Virus record (IMG/VR): IMGVR_UViG_3300032240_001134
Coordinates: 1 to 27,841 of that record
Reading direction: 5' to 3' (one strand)
From: a virus
DNA: 27,841 bases
Translations under genes and position numbers: made by a program
Notes under the pieces: generated by a model
The model's database searches: none
Told to the model about the DNA's origin: nothing
The model's input: only the letters and a program-made list of their open reading frames with translations
Shown here: positions 11,215 through 23,997 of the stretch, in pieces
How the letters are laid out: every line of letters begins with the position of its first letter
Position numbering within the stretch: position 1 is the stretch's first letter

Positions 11215-11239
11215 CGTATATAATACTTGGAAGCGAATC

Positions 11240-11680
11240 ATGGAATTACATCACATCAGAGATATCACACACCCCTTGGCAGGGATCATTAAAGATGATC
11301 CAGTACGCCCACACATCCCTATCGAACAACGCATTAACGAGGCTGCTGAAATTATGATCCTTAAAGCAGGAGAAGAAGTTTTAGCAGCCACTTGCCTACA
11401 ATGGTTAAGTGAAGTTCCTGAGGATGAGCAAGATTTGATCAATATGAATAAAGCTAAAGATGTGGCTGTATTTTATACCATTTGGAGTTACTCGCCAGGT
11501 GCAGGTGCTCGATTATTACAAGAGGCAGCTAACTGGATTAAAACAGAATATCCCGTAAAAAGTATCGTAACTCTAAGCCCACAAACAGAAATGGCTCGCA
11601 AGTTTCATTTAAAAAACGGTGCTCGAATTCGTAGAGAAAATCCTACCAGTGTTAATTACGAATACTATAGTAAGGAATAA
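11240..11680 (+). CDS. GNAT-like acetyltransferase-fold protein (146 aa)
   Basis: The order of elements resembles the GNAT N-acetyltransferase fold: AAEIMILKAGEEVLAATCLQ (beta strands), VAVFYTIWSYSPGAGARLLQEAANWIKTEYPVKSI (strand, then the acetyl-CoA loop GAGARLL and helix alpha3), then VTLSPQTEMARKFHLKNGA, the usual strand and C-terminal helix with 'FHLKNGA' like 'FYEKNGF'. The classical Q/RxxGxG/A motif is seen only as SPGAGARL, so activity is uncertain. Proteins like this occur near late genes of T4-like cyanophages. It starts the late cassette and stops two bases before the first fibre gene, so it may modify a virion or host protein, which is inference. Confidence 0.7.
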   Translation: MELHHIRDITHPLAGIIKDDPVRPHIPIEQRINEAAEIMILKAGEEVLAATCLQWLSEVPEDEQDLINMNKAKDVAVFYTIWSYSPGAGARLLQEAANWIKTEYPVKSIVTLSPQTEMARKFHLKNGARIRRENPTSVNYEYYSKE

Positions 11681-19847: not shown

Positions 19848-20216
19848 CTAGGGCTCAGTTGGGTAGCGAGTATAGATATAGTAACCTACTAGAGCGCCTA
19901 TGCTGACACTGACAAACAAGCTGGGCACAAAGGCAATCTGTACTAGATTGTTTACACTGGCAGCAGTCCAAAAAGAGCCCGCACGACGGTTAAATTCAGC
20001 TTGCTCTACAAGTGGACGATCTTCATAGTAGCTGATAAGCGCAACTTTGGTTAGGATAGTGCCCCAAACGCCCAAAGGATTAAGCTCACGACCTCCTAGA
20101 TGTTCTACAGCGTAGAGAGTGGTAACTGTGTCATATACGGCAGCTTCACGAGCAGTGGGATATGTTGTACAAGAGCATAAACTGAGTACAAGTAGAATGG
20201 CAAGGATCAAGCGCAT
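19848..20216 (-). CDS. Predicted lipoprotein with C-terminal membrane segment (122 aa)
   Basis: ATG 20216 gives MRLILAILLVLSLCSCTT, a signal peptide with lipobox LCSC, so the mature N-terminal Cys would be lipidated and anchored in the inner or outer membrane. The middle has AVEHLGGRELNPLGVWG, like the 'ELNPLG' motif of DUF5658-type membrane proteins. A second hydrophobic segment (LVQIAFVPSLFVSVSIGALVGYYIY) lies near the end. A TTG start seven codons upstream would place charged residues before the signal and is not preferred. Superinfection exclusion or an outer-membrane spanin are options, but only the topology is supported. It lies between the 72-aa gene and the structured intergenic region. 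Confidence 0.75.
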   Translation of the reverse strand: MRLILAILLVLSLCSCTTYPTAREAAVYDTVTTLYAVEHLGGRELNPLGVWGTILTKVALISYYEDRPLVEQAEFNRRAGSFWTAASVNNLVQIAFVPSLFVSVSIGALVGYYIYTRYPTEP

Positions 20217-20306
20217 ATGGTATTTAACGATAGACAACTATTTGGGCCCGAATGGGTTCTGGGCCGGGAAAAATTACCTGCGCAAAAAAAATTTGAGGAG
20301 TACTTA

Positions 20307-20520: not shown

Positions 20521-20551
20521 ACTACCGGCCAGCCTCGAGATCAAAAGAAAA

Positions 20552-20694
20552 TCCTCTGGCTACCGGGAGCGAATCGGATTTATGCCAGAGGACCAAGTTG
20601 GCTAGATAGCTCTCTAGCCTGAGGAACAGCTTACCGGGAGCGAATCGTTGGGCTGTTCTGTGTGCAGGGCTAGCACTATGCTGTGCTATACCCT
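20552..20694 (-). ncRNA. Candidate structured RNA: twin hairpins with an identical 16-nt loop motif
   Basis: HP1: 9-bp stem 20552-20560/20584-20592. HP2: 7-bp stem 20600-20606/20613-20619. HP3: 7-bp stem 20624-20630/20652-20658. HP4: bulged stem 20666-20676/20683-20694. HP1 and HP3 have unrelated stems (CCTCTGGC, GAACAGC) that pair perfectly, yet share the loop string TACCGGGAGCGAATCG (20561-20576, 20632-20647). Read on the minus strand, HP1 is followed by ATTTTCTTTT, like a terminator, so the RNA is probably the 3' part of the AAA+ transcript or a processed sRNA. The minus loop contains UUCGCUCC, complementary to GGAGCGAA at three early Shine-Dalgarno sites. Function is inference. Confidence 0.6.
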
Positions 20695-20702
20695 AGTACT
20701 AG

Positions 20703-21551
20703 TTAGCGCATACAGGTAACAGCCGCTACCTCTTGCCAGCGCTGTGGGAAGCTAACACGCAGGTCTGCTAGCTTGAGCACCATACGCAGGGACAGCTCAC
20801 GTAACCTGCCCTTGTTCACGTTGATGAACTCCAACAGGTCTGCTTGCTCTTCAGCTGTCATTTCATACTTGTCCAGCATGCCATCGCCTACGATCTGACG
20901 GATACGTAACAGCTTCTCACGCTCTGTATCAATAGTCAAGTCCAAGTAGTGGCAGCGGCTCTCTAGTGCTTCCAAGTGATCTTTCAGCTTCTTGCTCTTC
21001 ACATGCTCAAACTTGATGTTGGTAATAAAGATAGCACCGCCCTTGAACTCGAATGAGCCTGGGATGCCTTCTTGACGGAGCAAGCGGCTGTCAGTGTTCC
21101 AATGGATCATACGCTTTGAACCTGAGTCCAATGCTGCCTTTAGAATGTTCAAGCTGAGATCATCAAGCAGTACTGAGTCGCAGTCATCAAACACTAGAAT
21201 GTTCTTGGGATCACTGTAGGCAAACAGTTTGGCATACAAGCCCAAGGCACTCATTGCACCCTTGACAACTTCGTACTTCTTCAGCTTCTGATCGTTAGCC
21301 ACATTGGCGAACACATCGTGCTTCTCAAGTACTTTCTCAACACCAAAGCTCTTGCCCACACCTGGAGGGCCCGTAACGATCATGCTACGGATCTTACCTG
21401 CTTTGACAGCACGAGTCATGTCGTCCAGGATCTCAAAGCGTCCACGCAGGCGTTCGATGATCTCTGCGTCAGTCTCTGTGCTGACTCGTTTGTTGTTCTC
21501 TTGTGCGAGGCTAAGAACTGAACCTTTGTCTTTGGCAATACGCTGTACCAT
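20703..21551 (-). CDS. AAA+ ATPase (282 aa)
   Basis: Walker A is GPPGVGKS (residues 61-68), Walker B ILVFDDCDS (118-126) and sensor 1 is the N of IFITN (about 178). A conserved Arg in LESRCHY may be the arginine finger. Flanking helices and the short C-terminal helical lid (residues ~210-282) complete a single AAA+ module. No N- or C-terminal partner domain is seen, so the substrate is unknown; DNA remodelling, clamp or helicase loading are all possible. AAAGGAGCGACAG precedes the ATG, and a perfect promoter lies upstream. Codons are clearly more GC-rich than in the left half. Confidence 0.85.
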   Translation of the reverse strand: MVQRIAKDKGSVLSLAQENNKRVSTETDAEIIERLRGRFEILDDMTRAVKAGKIRSMIVTGPPGVGKSFGVEKVLEKHDVFANVANDQKLKKYEVVKGAMSALGLYAKLFAYSDPKNILVFDDCDSVLLDDLSLNILKAALDSGSKRMIHWNTDSRLLRQEGIPGSFEFKGGAIFITNIKFEHVKSKKLKDHLEALESRCHYLDLTIDTEREKLLRIRQIVGDGMLDKYEMTAEEQADLLEFINVNKGRLRELSLRMVLKLADLRVSFPQRWQEVAAVTCMR

Positions 21552-21581
21552 CTGTCGCTCCTTTTGTTAAGTTAAATGTCT

Positions 21582-21610
21582 ATTATAAGGGCTTTCGCCC
21601 TGTGTGTCAA
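21582..21610 (-). promoter_or_regulatory. Perfect sigma70 promoter of the AAA+ gene
   Basis: On the minus strand, TTGACA and TATAAT are perfect and 17 apart. The spacer contains the inverted repeat AGGGC-GAAA-GCCCT. Confidence 0.92.
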
Positions 21611-21951
21611 TCAAGTCGGCTACCTGCATAAGCTTCGAAGCCATACTTCTGAAACACTTTGGCGGCAGCTTCTGCACCCGCTTCTAGTGTGTCTACGTTC
21701 TGCACGAACATGCCGCTGGGGTTCCAGATTTGAAACGCTTTGGTGTAGTCTTGCTTGACACCTGCCTGTTTGAGCATCTTGCCCAGTTTGGTGTTGCCTT
21801 TGACACCGTAGATGTTGGTCCAAGCAAAGCCGCAGGCGTACTGGTCCTTGCCGCCCAGCTTGTCATGGAAGAACTTCATTGCGGCTTCGTAAGCTGCCTG
21901 CTGAGCTTCTTTGACGATTTGATTGACTTGCTCTTGTGTAGTGATCTGCAT
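21607..21951 (-). CDS. Conserved phage hypothetical (114 aa)
   Basis: Start ATG 21951 has AGGAGCGAA seven bases upstream. An N-terminal coiled-coil-like helix (TQEQVNQIVKEAQQAAYEAAMKFF) is followed by CGFAWTNIYGVKGNTKLGKML, FQIWNPSGMFVQNVDTLEAGAEAAAKVF and KYGFEAYAGSRLD. I recall the CGFAWV, WNPSG and YAGSR-D signatures from a widespread family in tailed phages that has no known function. The end overlaps the next promoter (-35 of the AAA+ gene at 21605-21610). Confidence 0.85.
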   Translation of the reverse strand: MQITTQEQVNQIVKEAQQAAYEAAMKFFHDKLGGKDQYACGFAWTNIYGVKGNTKLGKMLKQAGVKQDYTKAFQIWNPSGMFVQNVDTLEAGAEAAAKVFQKYGFEAYAGSRLD

Positions 21952-21985
21952 AGTTTCGCTCCTATAATGTGTTGTTGAAGTAGTA

Positions 21986-22014
21986 ATTATACAGGCTTTT
22001 GGCTAGCCTGTCAA
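21986..22014 (-). promoter_or_regulatory. Perfect sigma70 promoter (gene at 21951)
   Basis: TTGACA, 17 bases, TATAAT. Spacer with inverted repeat CAGGCT...AGCCTG around CCAAAAG. Confidence 0.92.
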
Positions 22015-22018
22015 CCGC

Positions 22019-22405
22019 TCAATAGTACTCGTCCGCGTTGAACTCGTCGCCATAGTACTCTGCGGCTTCTTCATCGGTCATTTGGTAGTCATCACCATCC
22101 TCAAACAGCATGTCGTCTTTGAGCATCTTGTTGACAGTCTTGAGCTCAACCTGCTTGCTCAGTTGCTTCCACAGCTCGGCTTCACGTAGAGCCAGCTGTT
22201 CTTCAATGTAGCCTTTGATGGCCTTCATCATGGCAAAGTCTTTGTTGGTGCCCACGTTACAAGAGCACTCGTCGATCATGTCAAAGGTCTCTTGGAAGCT
22301 GAGTCCTTCGCCTGTGTTCTTGTTGTACTGTTTGCGGCTGGCACCCAGGAAGTTCACGGCATCTTGCAGGTCCATTGGGCGGATAAGGTCATCCCAGTTA
22401 TACAT
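22019..22405 (-). CDS. Hypothetical acidic protein (128 aa)
   Basis: AAGGAGCGAACCTT precedes ATG 22405. The protein is helical (LQDAVNFLGASRKQYN, IKGYIEEQLALREAELWKQLSKQVELKTVNKML) and ends in an acidic, tyrosine-rich tail (FEDGDDYQMTDEEAAEYYGDEF). Two Cys in DECSCNVG. No family recognised. It belongs to the early monocistronic series, each gene with its own promoter. Confidence 0.75.
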   Translation of the reverse strand: MYNWDDLIRPMDLQDAVNFLGASRKQYNKNTGEGLSFQETFDMIDECSCNVGTNKDFAMMKAIKGYIEEQLALREAELWKQLSKQVELKTVNKMLKDDMLFEDGDDYQMTDEEAAEYYGDEFNADEYY

Positions 22406-22434
22406 AAGGTTCGCTCCTTTGTTGCTAAGTGTTG

Positions 22435-22464
22435 ATTATACTATTTAAGCCAGCTCTTTGTCAA
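22435..22464 (-). promoter_or_regulatory. Sigma70 promoter, 18-bp spacer (gene at 22405)
   Basis: TTGACA and TATAAT are perfect, 18 apart. The -35 box is within the last codons (LVDKELA) of the upstream KOW-like gene. Confidence 0.88.
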
Positions 22465-22735
22465 CCAGCTTGAGCATGTTAGCAGGCACTCGCCACAGGC
22501 CCATGCCCGTATCAACTGTGACGTATTTAATGGCGATCTTTGTGACAAAGCCACGGGTCAAACGTCCTGTCTTTGAGCTGGTGAACTCGACATTGTCGCC
22601 TACACGGATGCTTCGTTTGACTTGATGCACCAGTTGGGCACGGTTCCATTTGACTGCATCAATCATGCTTCGCAGTTCAACGTCCGTCCAAGTCTGCAAC
22701 ATGATAGCTGAGTTAACTTCTCGAATGGTTAGCAT
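22445..22735 (-). CDS. Small KOW-like protein (96 aa)
   Basis: ATG 22735 has AGGAG eight bases upstream; a longer frame to 22816 contains the promoter and is rejected. The second half carries IRVGDNVEFTSSKTGRLTRG, then VTKIAIKYVTVDTG-GLWRVPANML, the strand pattern of KOW/SH3-like domains as found in small phage proteins. KOW domains bind RNA or proteins; which is meant here is not known. Basic N-terminal helices (ELRSMIDAVKWNRAQLVHQVK) precede it. Confidence 0.75.
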   Translation of the reverse strand: MLTIREVNSAIMLQTWTDVELRSMIDAVKWNRAQLVHQVKRSIRVGDNVEFTSSKTGRLTRGFVTKIAIKYVTVDTGMGLWRVPANMLKLVDKELA

Positions 22736-22755
22736 AGGTTTGCTCCTGTGTGTGT

Positions 22756-22860
22756 TTAAGCTGTAATTATAGCTTCGATTACCAAAGCTGTCAAGAGGAT
22801 CGCACAAAAAATCCAAAGTTCCATTGTGACATAGAACGCATAGATCAACTGATCAATCAT
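22756..22860 (-). CDS. Small membrane protein (34 aa)
   Basis: ATG 22860 overlaps the TGA of the upstream gene (ATGA), with AAGGAG seven bases upstream. The protein is almost one transmembrane helix (MIDQLIYAFYVTMELW, IFCAILLTALVIEAIITA). The following gene's complete promoter (22766-22794) is inside its coding sequence. Function unknown. Confidence 0.6.
   Translation of the reverse strand: MIDQLIYAFYVTMELWIFCAILLTALVIEAIITA
22766..22794 (-). promoter_or_regulatory. Perfect sigma70 promoter (gene at 22735)
   Basis: TTGACA-17-TATAAT within the 34-aa membrane ORF. Spacer inverted repeat AGCTT...AAGCT. Confidence 0.92.
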
Positions 22861-23234
22861 ACTGTCTCCTTACGAAAGTAGCCATAGGGCAAGCCTACCA
22901 GGTAGCAAAGGTACTCGTCGTCACCGTCTGAACCTTCTGCTTCGTGTATCCAGCGCAGGGCCATCTCATAGCTCTTAGCACCACTGGTCAACAGACCCTG
23001 CACTCGCATTTCAAAGTCGATCATAGCGGCTTCTTCGCGCTCTTTGCGAGCGATCTCTTCCTGCTCGATGACCTTGCTGAGGCTAACGAACTCAGACTCA
23101 AAGTCCGCTTCTGTCCAGCTAGAGGTATCGATGCCGCGTGGGCGGACACCGTAGGCATCCTTATACATATCCCAGAACTGGCAAGCATACTGTTCCAGAG
23201 TAGTCATCTCTTCCCAGCTTTTGAATTCGTTCAT
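22857..23234 (-). CDS. Conserved phage hypothetical (125 aa)
   Basis: ATG 23234 has AAGGAGCAAGG directly upstream; the frame up to 23294 overlaps the promoter and is rejected. The signature YACQFWDMYKDAYGVRPRG resembles a 'WDxYKDxYGxRPR' pattern I recall from many tailed-phage early proteins. A charged coiled-coil-like middle follows (LSKVIEQEEIARKEREEAAMIDFEMR), then SYEMALRWIHEAE and YLCYLVGLPYG. No enzymatic motif. Coupled to the 34-aa ORF. Confidence 0.82.
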   Translation of the reverse strand: MNEFKSWEEMTTLEQYACQFWDMYKDAYGVRPRGIDTSSWTEADFESEFVSLSKVIEQEEIARKEREEAAMIDFEMRVQGLLTSGAKSYEMALRWIHEAEGSDGDDEYLCYLVGLPYGYFRKETV

Positions 23235-23265
23235 TCCTTGCTCCTTTGTGTGTCTGTATGTGTAT

Positions 23266-23294
23266 ATTATAGCAGTTTGGGCCCAGGCTGTCAA
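23266..23294 (-). promoter_or_regulatory. Perfect sigma70 promoter (gene at 23234)
   Basis: TTGACA-17-TATAAT. The spacer contains the 8-bp palindrome TGGGCCCA. It begins four bases after the stop of the 79-aa gene. Confidence 0.92.
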
Positions 23295-23297
23295 CCA

Positions 23298-23537
23298 TCA
23301 ATCCCAGGATTTTTTACCGCCGTGAGCTTCATTGTACTCGTAGCCAGCGGCATAGGCTACGATCTCTGCAGGAGTCATGTCCTTGGCCTGTACGGGCTCT
23401 GAATCGTAGCTACCGCCTTCAAAGTAGTGAGGGTTGAAAGGACGGCTGTACCAGCTGTCTGCTGAGCCACGATCAAAGGGTCCACCATGGCGGCTGTCGT
23501 AGACTTGACCCTTGTACTCTATACGTTCTGCTATCAT
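23298..23537 (-). CDS. Conserved phage hypothetical (79 aa)
   Basis: TAAGGAGCGAAG precedes ATG 23537. The block YDSRHGGPFDRGSADSWYSRPFNPHYFEGGSYDSE, then MTPAEIVAYAAGYEYNEAHGGKKSW, is a signature I recall from many phage hypotheticals. It is rich in Gly, Tyr and Asp. Function unknown. Confidence 0.85.
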   Translation of the reverse strand: MIAERIEYKGQVYDSRHGGPFDRGSADSWYSRPFNPHYFEGGSYDSEPVQAKDMTPAEIVAYAAGYEYNEAHGGKKSWD

Positions 23538-23563
23538 CTTCGCTCCTTATTGTCTATACTGTA

Positions 23564-23592
23564 AGTATAACATCGGTTTTACCACTTGTCAA
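23564..23592 (-). promoter_or_regulatory. Sigma70 promoter TTGACA-17-TATACT with palindrome (gene at 23537)
   Basis: The -10 box is part of the inverted repeat TATACT-TAC-AGTATA. A 31-base block that contains it (23542-23572) is repeated exactly at 23779-23809. The TGA inside TTGACA is the stop of the upstream 61-aa gene. Confidence 0.88.
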
Positions 23593-23774
23593 GCAGATTC
23601 TTTAACTCTATATGCTACTACCTCGCCACCACCTTTGGCATGACTGCCATCGATGAGTTTGGTAAACATCTCAACGATCTCTTCTGCTTCTTGTCGTGTG
23701 CGATAGACGTTGAGTGGTTCCCAACGGTTGGGACGTGTCTTAAATTTCAGTTCTCGCTCTACAAAGTAGTTCAT
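23589..23774 (-). CDS. Hypothetical (61 aa)
   Basis: TAAGGAGCG precedes ATG 23774. Beta-alpha-beta-like (NYFVERELKFKTRPNRWEPL, then NVYRTRQEAEEIVEMFTKLI, then GGEVVAYRVKES), resembling small phage proteins that are read beside tRNA genes, without known function. Its TGA stop lies in the next -35 box. Confidence 0.78.
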   Translation of the reverse strand: MNYFVERELKFKTRPNRWEPLNVYRTRQEAEEIVEMFTKLIDGSHAKGGGEVVAYRVKESA

Positions 23775-23800
23775 GCCCGCTCCTTATTGTCTATACTGTA

Positions 23801-23829
23801 AGTATAACACCAAAAAGAAACCCTGTCAA
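23801..23829 (-). promoter_or_regulatory. Sigma70 promoter TTGACA-17-TATACT (gene at 23774)
   Basis: Same 31-base block as in the promoter at 23564-23592, including TATACT-TAC-AGTATA. It starts 13 bases after the tRNA-Arg 3' end. Confidence 0.88.
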
Positions 23830-23841
23830 CCGACGGGGTAT

Positions 23842-23916
23842 TGGTCCGGCGACCAGGAATCGAACCTGGATTGATAGCTTAGAAGGCTACTGTTCTGTCC
23901 ATTGAACTACCGCCAG
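23842..23916 (-). tRNA. tRNA-Arg(UCU)
   Basis: The acceptor stem CTGGCGG/TCGCCGG, D arm (GTTC...GAAC), anticodon stem GTAGC/GCTAT with loop CTTCTAA (anticodon UCU), T arm CCAGG-TTCGATT-CCTGG, discriminator A and an encoded CCA are all present. It decodes AGA/AGG, frequent in the AT-rich late genes. Confidence 0.93.
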
Positions 23917-23919
23917 GAT

Positions 23920-23997
23920 TGGTGGGCCCTCCGTGAGTCGAACACGGCACCAATGGATTATGAGTCCACTGCTCTAACCAACATGAGCTAAGGGCCC
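23920..23997 (-). tRNA. CAU tRNA, probably tRNA-Ile2 (lysidine type)
   Basis: Acceptor GGGCCCT/AGGGCCC, D arm, anticodon stem GTGGA/TCCAT with loop CTCATAA (anticodon CAU), T loop GTTCGACTC and encoded CCA. Acceptor pairs C4-G69 and C5-G68, which TilS recognises in tRNA-Ile2, are present; elongator Met has T4-A69/A5-T68. AUA decoding is therefore likelier than Met. Ends four bases from tRNA-Arg. Confidence 0.85.

Follow-up and report, generated by a model that had tools for sequence, protein, structure and literature searches.

What is known of translational control in lytic T4-like phages concerns mainly proteins such as RegA, which competes with the ribosome at the initiation regions of about 30 phage mRNAs and thereby inhibits them (PMC3014915). 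The c4 RNA of P1/P7 is a phage antisense RNA, the complementary stretches of which, probably located in loops, pair around the ribosome-binding site and block translation (PMC12197685). In S. aureus, the icaR mRNA contains the 3'-UTR motif UCCCCUG pairing with the Shine-Dalgarno (SD) region, which impedes initiation and creates a site for RNase III (PMC3868564), and RNAIII is a multi-target RNA with many stem-loops, some of them C-rich, favouring the pairing with mRNA targets (PMC9266662). The C-rich loops of RNAIII pair with SD regions; to our knowledge there is no genome-wide SD extension matching RNAIII.

Here, we analysed a stretch of viral DNA of 27,841 nucleotides, referred to as the window (IMG/VR record IMGVR_UViG_3300032240_001134). 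Our data suggest that an early AAA+ (NrdC.10-like) mRNA of this and other T4-like phages likely bears in its 3' UTR a conserved antisense device that lowers the translation of a regulon; the pairing is strongly inferred from sequence, and repression, processing and timing are inferred, there being no transcript or reporter data. The closest known systems are c4 RNA, the icaR 3' UTR and RNAIII, and the element is not shown to belong to any of these families, nor to that of RegA. It resembles c4 as a putative phage-encoded antisense RNA with the complement of a ribosome-binding site in its loops, whereas c4 acts on the ant mRNA in temperate phages and the element described here, a terminator element of a 3' UTR, repeats the same loop and matches many leaders genome-wide. 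As in icaR, a 3'-UTR motif is complementary to the SD region; in contrast to icaR, with one motif acting on its own mRNA, repeated hairpin loops match and coevolve with many genes. RNAIII is a cellular quorum-sensing effector with its own promoter, unlike a phage 3' UTR. The regulatory job proposed is that of RegA, which however is a protein recognising A+U-rich sites around the AUG, while here an RNA would pair with the SD. The literature searched, the coverage of which is incomplete, did not describe any phage RNA in coevolution with a genome-wide SD extension.

Architecture of the 3' UTR element

On the minus strand, the AAA+ stop codon is followed by a hairpin without the motif, hairpin 2, a spacer hairpin, hairpin 1 and finally the U-tract UUUUCUUUU. 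The features, including the candidate target sites discussed below, are as follows.

20543..20551, minus strand: U-tract UUUUCUUUU after hairpin 1 (sequence; U6 or more in 66/74 related loci)
20552..20592, minus strand: hairpin 1, arms 20552-20560 and 20584-20592, loop 20561-20583 with AUUCGCUCC (folds, sequence; same place in relatives)
20600..20619, minus strand: spacer hairpin without the motif, GGCUAGA...UCUAGCC (fold)
20624..20658, minus strand: hairpin 2, arms 20624-20630 and 20652-20658, 21-nt loop 20631-20651 (CCAACGAUUCGCUCCCGGUAA) (folds; 24 distinct relatives)
20661..20698, minus strand: further hairpin without the motif, between the AAA+ stop and hairpin 2 (fold)
20703..21551, minus strand: AAA+ ATPase gene, homologue of T4 NrdC.10 (PHROG 1250), the hairpins being its 3' UTR
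21554..21561, minus strand: SD of the AAA+ gene, GGAGCGAC, 7/8 bases, possible cis target (sequence; -13.1 kcal/mol with the loop core)
21582..21610, minus strand: promoter of the AAA+ gene, TTGACA, 17 nt, TATAAT (consensus scan)
21955..21962, minus strand: SD of gene 21607-21951, GGAGCGAA, candidate target (-14.1 kcal/mol with the loop core)
22410..22417, minus strand: SD of gene 22019-22405, GGAGCGAA, candidate target (-13.9 kcal/mol with the loop core)
23539..23546, minus strand: SD of gene 23298-23537, GGAGCGAA, candidate target (-14.1 kcal/mol with the loop core)

The loops of hairpins 1 and 2 share the same core, both reading UUCGCUCC on the minus strand. Hairpin 1 is directly followed by the U-tract and is therefore the probable intrinsic terminator of the AAA+ operon; no separate U-tract accompanies hairpin 2. 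The region folds better than shuffled sequences on both strands (z of -3.1 and -3.8). A consensus scan revealed that seven genes further upstream in the cluster each have their own near-perfect sigma-70 promoter, because of which we infer these genes to be early. No dedicated promoter for a small RNA was seen. Searching the window and the region with Rfam returned only two tRNAs elsewhere in the window and no match of the element at gathering score, so that homology to the c4 RNA family is not supported, and no isolated phage matched the 481-bp region in a blastn search.

Complementarity to leaders of the early cluster

By word count, GGAGCGAA occurs in five exact copies in the window, two on the plus and three on the minus strand, compared to a mean of 0.35 in shuffled windows and no case with five copies in 100 shuffles. 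The plus-strand copies correspond to both hairpin loops (20566-20573 and 20637-20644), the minus-strand copies lie at 21955-21962, 22410-22417 and 23539-23546 with an ATG just downstream of each. An earlier note made from the sequence alone had claimed that the SD octamer of the genes starting at 21951, 22405 and 23537 finds its exact complement in the minus-strand loops and that the AAA+ SD matches in seven of eight bases; both claims held, with all positions being right and the latter site being GGAGCGAC at 21554-21561. The interaction prediction that it had proposed yields -13.1 to -14.1 kcal/mol for the loop core with the four minus-strand leaders at 21551, 21951, 22405 and 23537, versus -0.7 to -7.5 kcal/mol for plus-strand leaders, the gene at 11240 excepted (-15.0 kcal/mol).

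The further claim that the CGAA extension lies outside the SD core held as well. Within 22 related loci with this loop, GGAG is followed by CGAA in 37 of the 94 leaders having GGAG, versus 49 of the 542 GGAG words outside these leaders (p = 3e-12), a background containing the hairpins themselves, and in relatives without the loop in 0/93 leaders having GGAG. The frequency of the extension exceeds what is expected from SD plus composition.

Two further observations concern leaders in the window. The plus-strand gene 11240-11680, with the leader GGAAGCGAATC-ATG at 11229-11239, might be an imperfect late target. Two early genes have a promoter-leader repeat of 39 nt in common (23534-23572 and 23771-23809; 92% identical), one SD being GGAGCGAA and the other GGAGCGGG, which we read as early leaders having spread by duplication.

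Conservation of the hairpins and the transcribed strand

The 15-mer ACCGGGAGCGAATCG is present in at least 120 viral-contig stretches. As the chance expectation in a collection of this size is, by our own rough estimate, of the order of 100, bare matches were not counted and a hairpin, twin or leader context was required. Under strict criteria, 65 of the 143 occurrences fall into hairpins with ≥7 perfect pairs, the arms of which differ but stay complementary, and often two copies are found 60-100 nt apart. Among 24 distinct hairpin-2 sequences, pairs 1-6 are always paired and the loop is invariant; over 8 positions, pairing amounts to 89% versus 58% with arms shuffled among hairpins. The stems covary in a compensating manner around a fixed loop, a further example being the third hairpin of L112 with the closing CCG/CGG replaced by CCA/UGG and the same core. 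Folds, covarying stems and fixed loop together show the complement being displayed in a hairpin loop. The element is located directly 3' of the AAA+ gene in all 16 of 16 twin loci, window included, which together with the 7/8 match of the AAA+ SD fulfils what defines an icaR-like anti-SD element of a 3' UTR.

Three signs show the RNA being the minus strand, i.e. the AAA+ sense. Of 74 loci, 66 have at least six U after the last hairpin, compared to a single one with the mirror sign for the other strand. Across 58 stems there are 15 G-U pairs in AAA+ sense versus a single A-C, equivalent to G-U on the other strand. In clade B, the genes on both sides of the hairpins are co-directional with AAA+. 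Minimum free energies of sense versus antisense strand do not tell which strand is transcribed. The choice left open before, between a minus-strand anti-SD RNA and a plus-strand SD decoy, is thereby settled for the minus strand, and the loops are therefore anti-SD.

Several of these phages also have another recurrent type of terminator, the arms of which read TAACCC/GGGTTA around a 7-nt loop of variable sequence (CTGGCTC, CTCGCAC, CTGCCCT, CGGTTGC), as at L271:1925, L275:10942, L332:14647 and L321:3290.

Loop and SD sequences change together between lineages

Clade A combines loops UUCGCUCC with the early SD GGAGCGAA. Clade B, a second AAA+ clade, has 3'-UTR hairpins, often two to four, with UUGCCCUC/GUGCCCUC loops such as UGUGCCCUCG or GCCCUCACGC, and the SD sites are GAGGGCAA/C, the early SD reading AGAGGGCAAU-AUG, most of the sites being AGAGGGC without GGAG. 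In the SD zone, GGAGCG is present in 72/263 genes of 22 A loci versus 18/483 genes of 35 B loci, and GAGGGC in 0/263 genes of the A loci, 123/483 of the B loci and 7/773 of the 72 remaining loci. In the 101 kb of G023, GAGGGCAA occurs 11 times, ten times in leaders and once as the loop complement.

Motif-free comparison of 7-mers gives the same picture: A loops match 24% of their own leaders versus 1.5% of B leaders, B loops 18% of their own versus 0.9% of A leaders, and reversed loops as a control 1-2% of leaders. Loops match the leaders of their own lineage about 16-20 times more often than those of the other, and the own loop outperforms the swapped loop in 45 of 53 loci (p = 9e-10); only about a quarter of the leaders match the loop. 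This test was focused on the 3' UTR and replaced a test of all hairpins against all leaders over whole records, which was uninformative, true hairpins being lost to ORF masking and AU-rich loops being dominant. The complementarity to ribosome-binding sites of genes encoded elsewhere is beyond chance. The likeness of SD cores, named in the earlier note as a source of some complementarity, cannot explain that loop and SD change jointly between lineages; among all lines of evidence, this comparison is the decisive one.

Leaders of late genes

Some leaders contain the full complement right before the start codon and about 10 nt past a T4-type TAAATA late promoter. The genes concerned encode CsgF (PF10614), a 93-aa membrane protein (phrog_18771), a DUF4337 protein and secreted proteins; leaders of endonuclease VII (PF02945) also have the complement, with no clear late promoter in front. 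The csgF and small membrane gene leaders of large genomes are complementary to the loop over about 15 nt. Four records of 265-383 kb combine the hairpins with such leaders, three having the exact 14-mer and one having one mismatch. In the B-type genome G052 (357 kb), the leaders are GGAGGGCACG-ATG for csgF and GCGUGAGGGGCAUAC for phrog_18771, with predicted energies of -19.9 and -29.6 kcal/mol with the B loop and -11.4 and -11.6 kcal/mol with the A loop; the A-type orthologues reach -35.2 and -33.7 kcal/mol with the A loop. Two phages without hairpins start phrog_18771 almost directly after TAAATA, with no SD.

Homologues of CsgF, a curli secretion protein (PF10614), were observed in the T4-like phage contigs L004/L166, L162, L167 and L602, mostly behind a TAAATA late promoter.

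Presence and absence among relatives

Records having GGAGCGA leaders and no twin at the AAA+ gene contain the 13-nt loop elsewhere in 19 of 27 cases; in 27 records chosen for lacking GGAGCGA leaders, three B-type records among them, it was found once, and the reversed loop as control is absent from all 54. Several relatives have the two hairpins 6-9 kb apart. About a third of the records with GGAGCGA leaders show no loop, most of these being short fragments. The impression that many relatives have GGAGCGAA leaders but no loops turned out to be largely wrong, the loop being located elsewhere in most such records.

When mapped onto a tree of 84 AAA+ proteins, the four states require 4 changes, compared to a mean of 46 after shuffling, and the single exception with a loop and without GGAGCGA leaders (L223) lies inside the loop-bearing clade. 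The lineage association rests on few independent events, and gene-level p-values therefore overstate the evidence. Two separate groups are devoid of loops, one of them having SDs without a strong shared extension; relatives without hairpins have neither lineage's SD extension. A third loop/SD pair was not found in the hairpin-less freshwater relatives, the SDs of which are heterogeneous, and T4 itself has no such loop after nrdC.10.

Proposed mechanism and alternative explanations

Hairpins, transcribed strand, stem covariation around a fixed loop and loop-SD covariation across lineages are shown from sequence. In the model built on these, two or more hairpins, including the intrinsic terminator, display a loop of about 9 nt (here AUUCGCUCC), the exact complement of an SD region common to many phage genes. 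The active RNA may be the mRNA tail or a small RNA cut from the AAA+ mRNA; its loops would pair with SD sites of leaders in trans and of the AAA+ mRNA in cis, competing with 30S binding and lowering translation of the regulon. Its members would be early genes matching over 8-9 nt and the AAA+ mRNA itself, joined in large genomes by a few late genes that match over about 15 nt; these late targets, csgF, small membrane protein and endonuclease VII, would stay off until late. Short matches to many early and long matches to few late genes suggest graded control.

That translation of several early mRNAs is blocked, as the earlier note had put forward, is an interpretation largely supported, with the blocking and its timing remaining inference. 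The early-gene shut-off suggested there is plausible; yet the longest complementarities belong to late-promoter genes (csgF, small membrane gene, endonuclease VII), invisible to that note, and the sequence cannot distinguish early shut-off from a delay of late genes.

It could be argued that the loops act only in cis, pairing as in icaR with the SD either of the AAA+ mRNA carrying them or of neighbouring genes reached by read-through, all other matches being a by-product of a common early leader sequence. The 7/8 match of the AAA+ SD, the hairpins remaining at the end of the AAA+ gene or its operon and the likeness of early leaders support this; we nevertheless regard it as unlikely, as the longest complements belong to late genes that lie far away behind TAAATA promoters, and these complements switch with the loop; in some phages, a second hairpin is also 6-9 kb away. 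Unlikely too is a pairing that is real and not repressive, by which early leaders would be stabilised or protected, e.g. from a RegB-like endonuclease cutting GGAG, or mRNA decay be tuned via RNase III. RegB does cut GGAG in early leaders with structure being protective (PMC3014915), and pairing in icaR creates an RNase III site (PMC3868564); against it, most clade B sites are AGAGGGC lacking GGAG, and pairing over the SD should hinder 30S binding.

Two alternatives have very little left in their favour. A plus-strand product with GGAGCGAA loops as SD decoys for a protein binding early leaders would fit the identity of plus-strand loops and leaders and the folding of the plus strand too; we rejected it, since U-tracts and G-U pairs favour the minus strand and the co-directional neighbours in clade B leave no transcript for the other strand. 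Ordinary terminators matching by SD-core coincidence would agree with one hairpin being a terminator and GGAG being common to SD cores. However, the extensions beyond the core match and switch with the loop, hairpin 2 lacks a U-tract, and the loop is invariant with stems being variable; the covariation contradicts this explanation, unless it is a founder effect of very few lineages.

We thus retain the antisense device, and lean, with only slight preference, towards a bolder reading taken as a whole: a private SD code, in which the genes of the regulon would be marked by the SD extension and the mark be read by an RNA with several loops that ends an early operon. Between lineages, the code would have changed (GGAGCGAA to GAGGGCAA), the loop and dozens of leaders being altered jointly, and it would govern both the shut-off of early genes and the release of late genes for secretion or lysis. 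If true, an RNA does a RegA-type job for a whole regulon in widespread environmental T4-like and jumbo phages. It would also account for the shared early SD extension (CGAA, GCAA), which is not expected to pair with the conserved 16S tail, and predicts held-back late genes including a curli-secretion homologue. A natural compensatory evolution of loop and SD is already in hand.

Other genes near the element

Past the terminator lies a small lipoprotein-like gene (19848-20237, minus strand) with a signal peptide ending LCSC and no Pfam match. The early cluster also includes two phage tRNA genes (23842-23997, minus strand), Arg (TCT) and Met (CAT).
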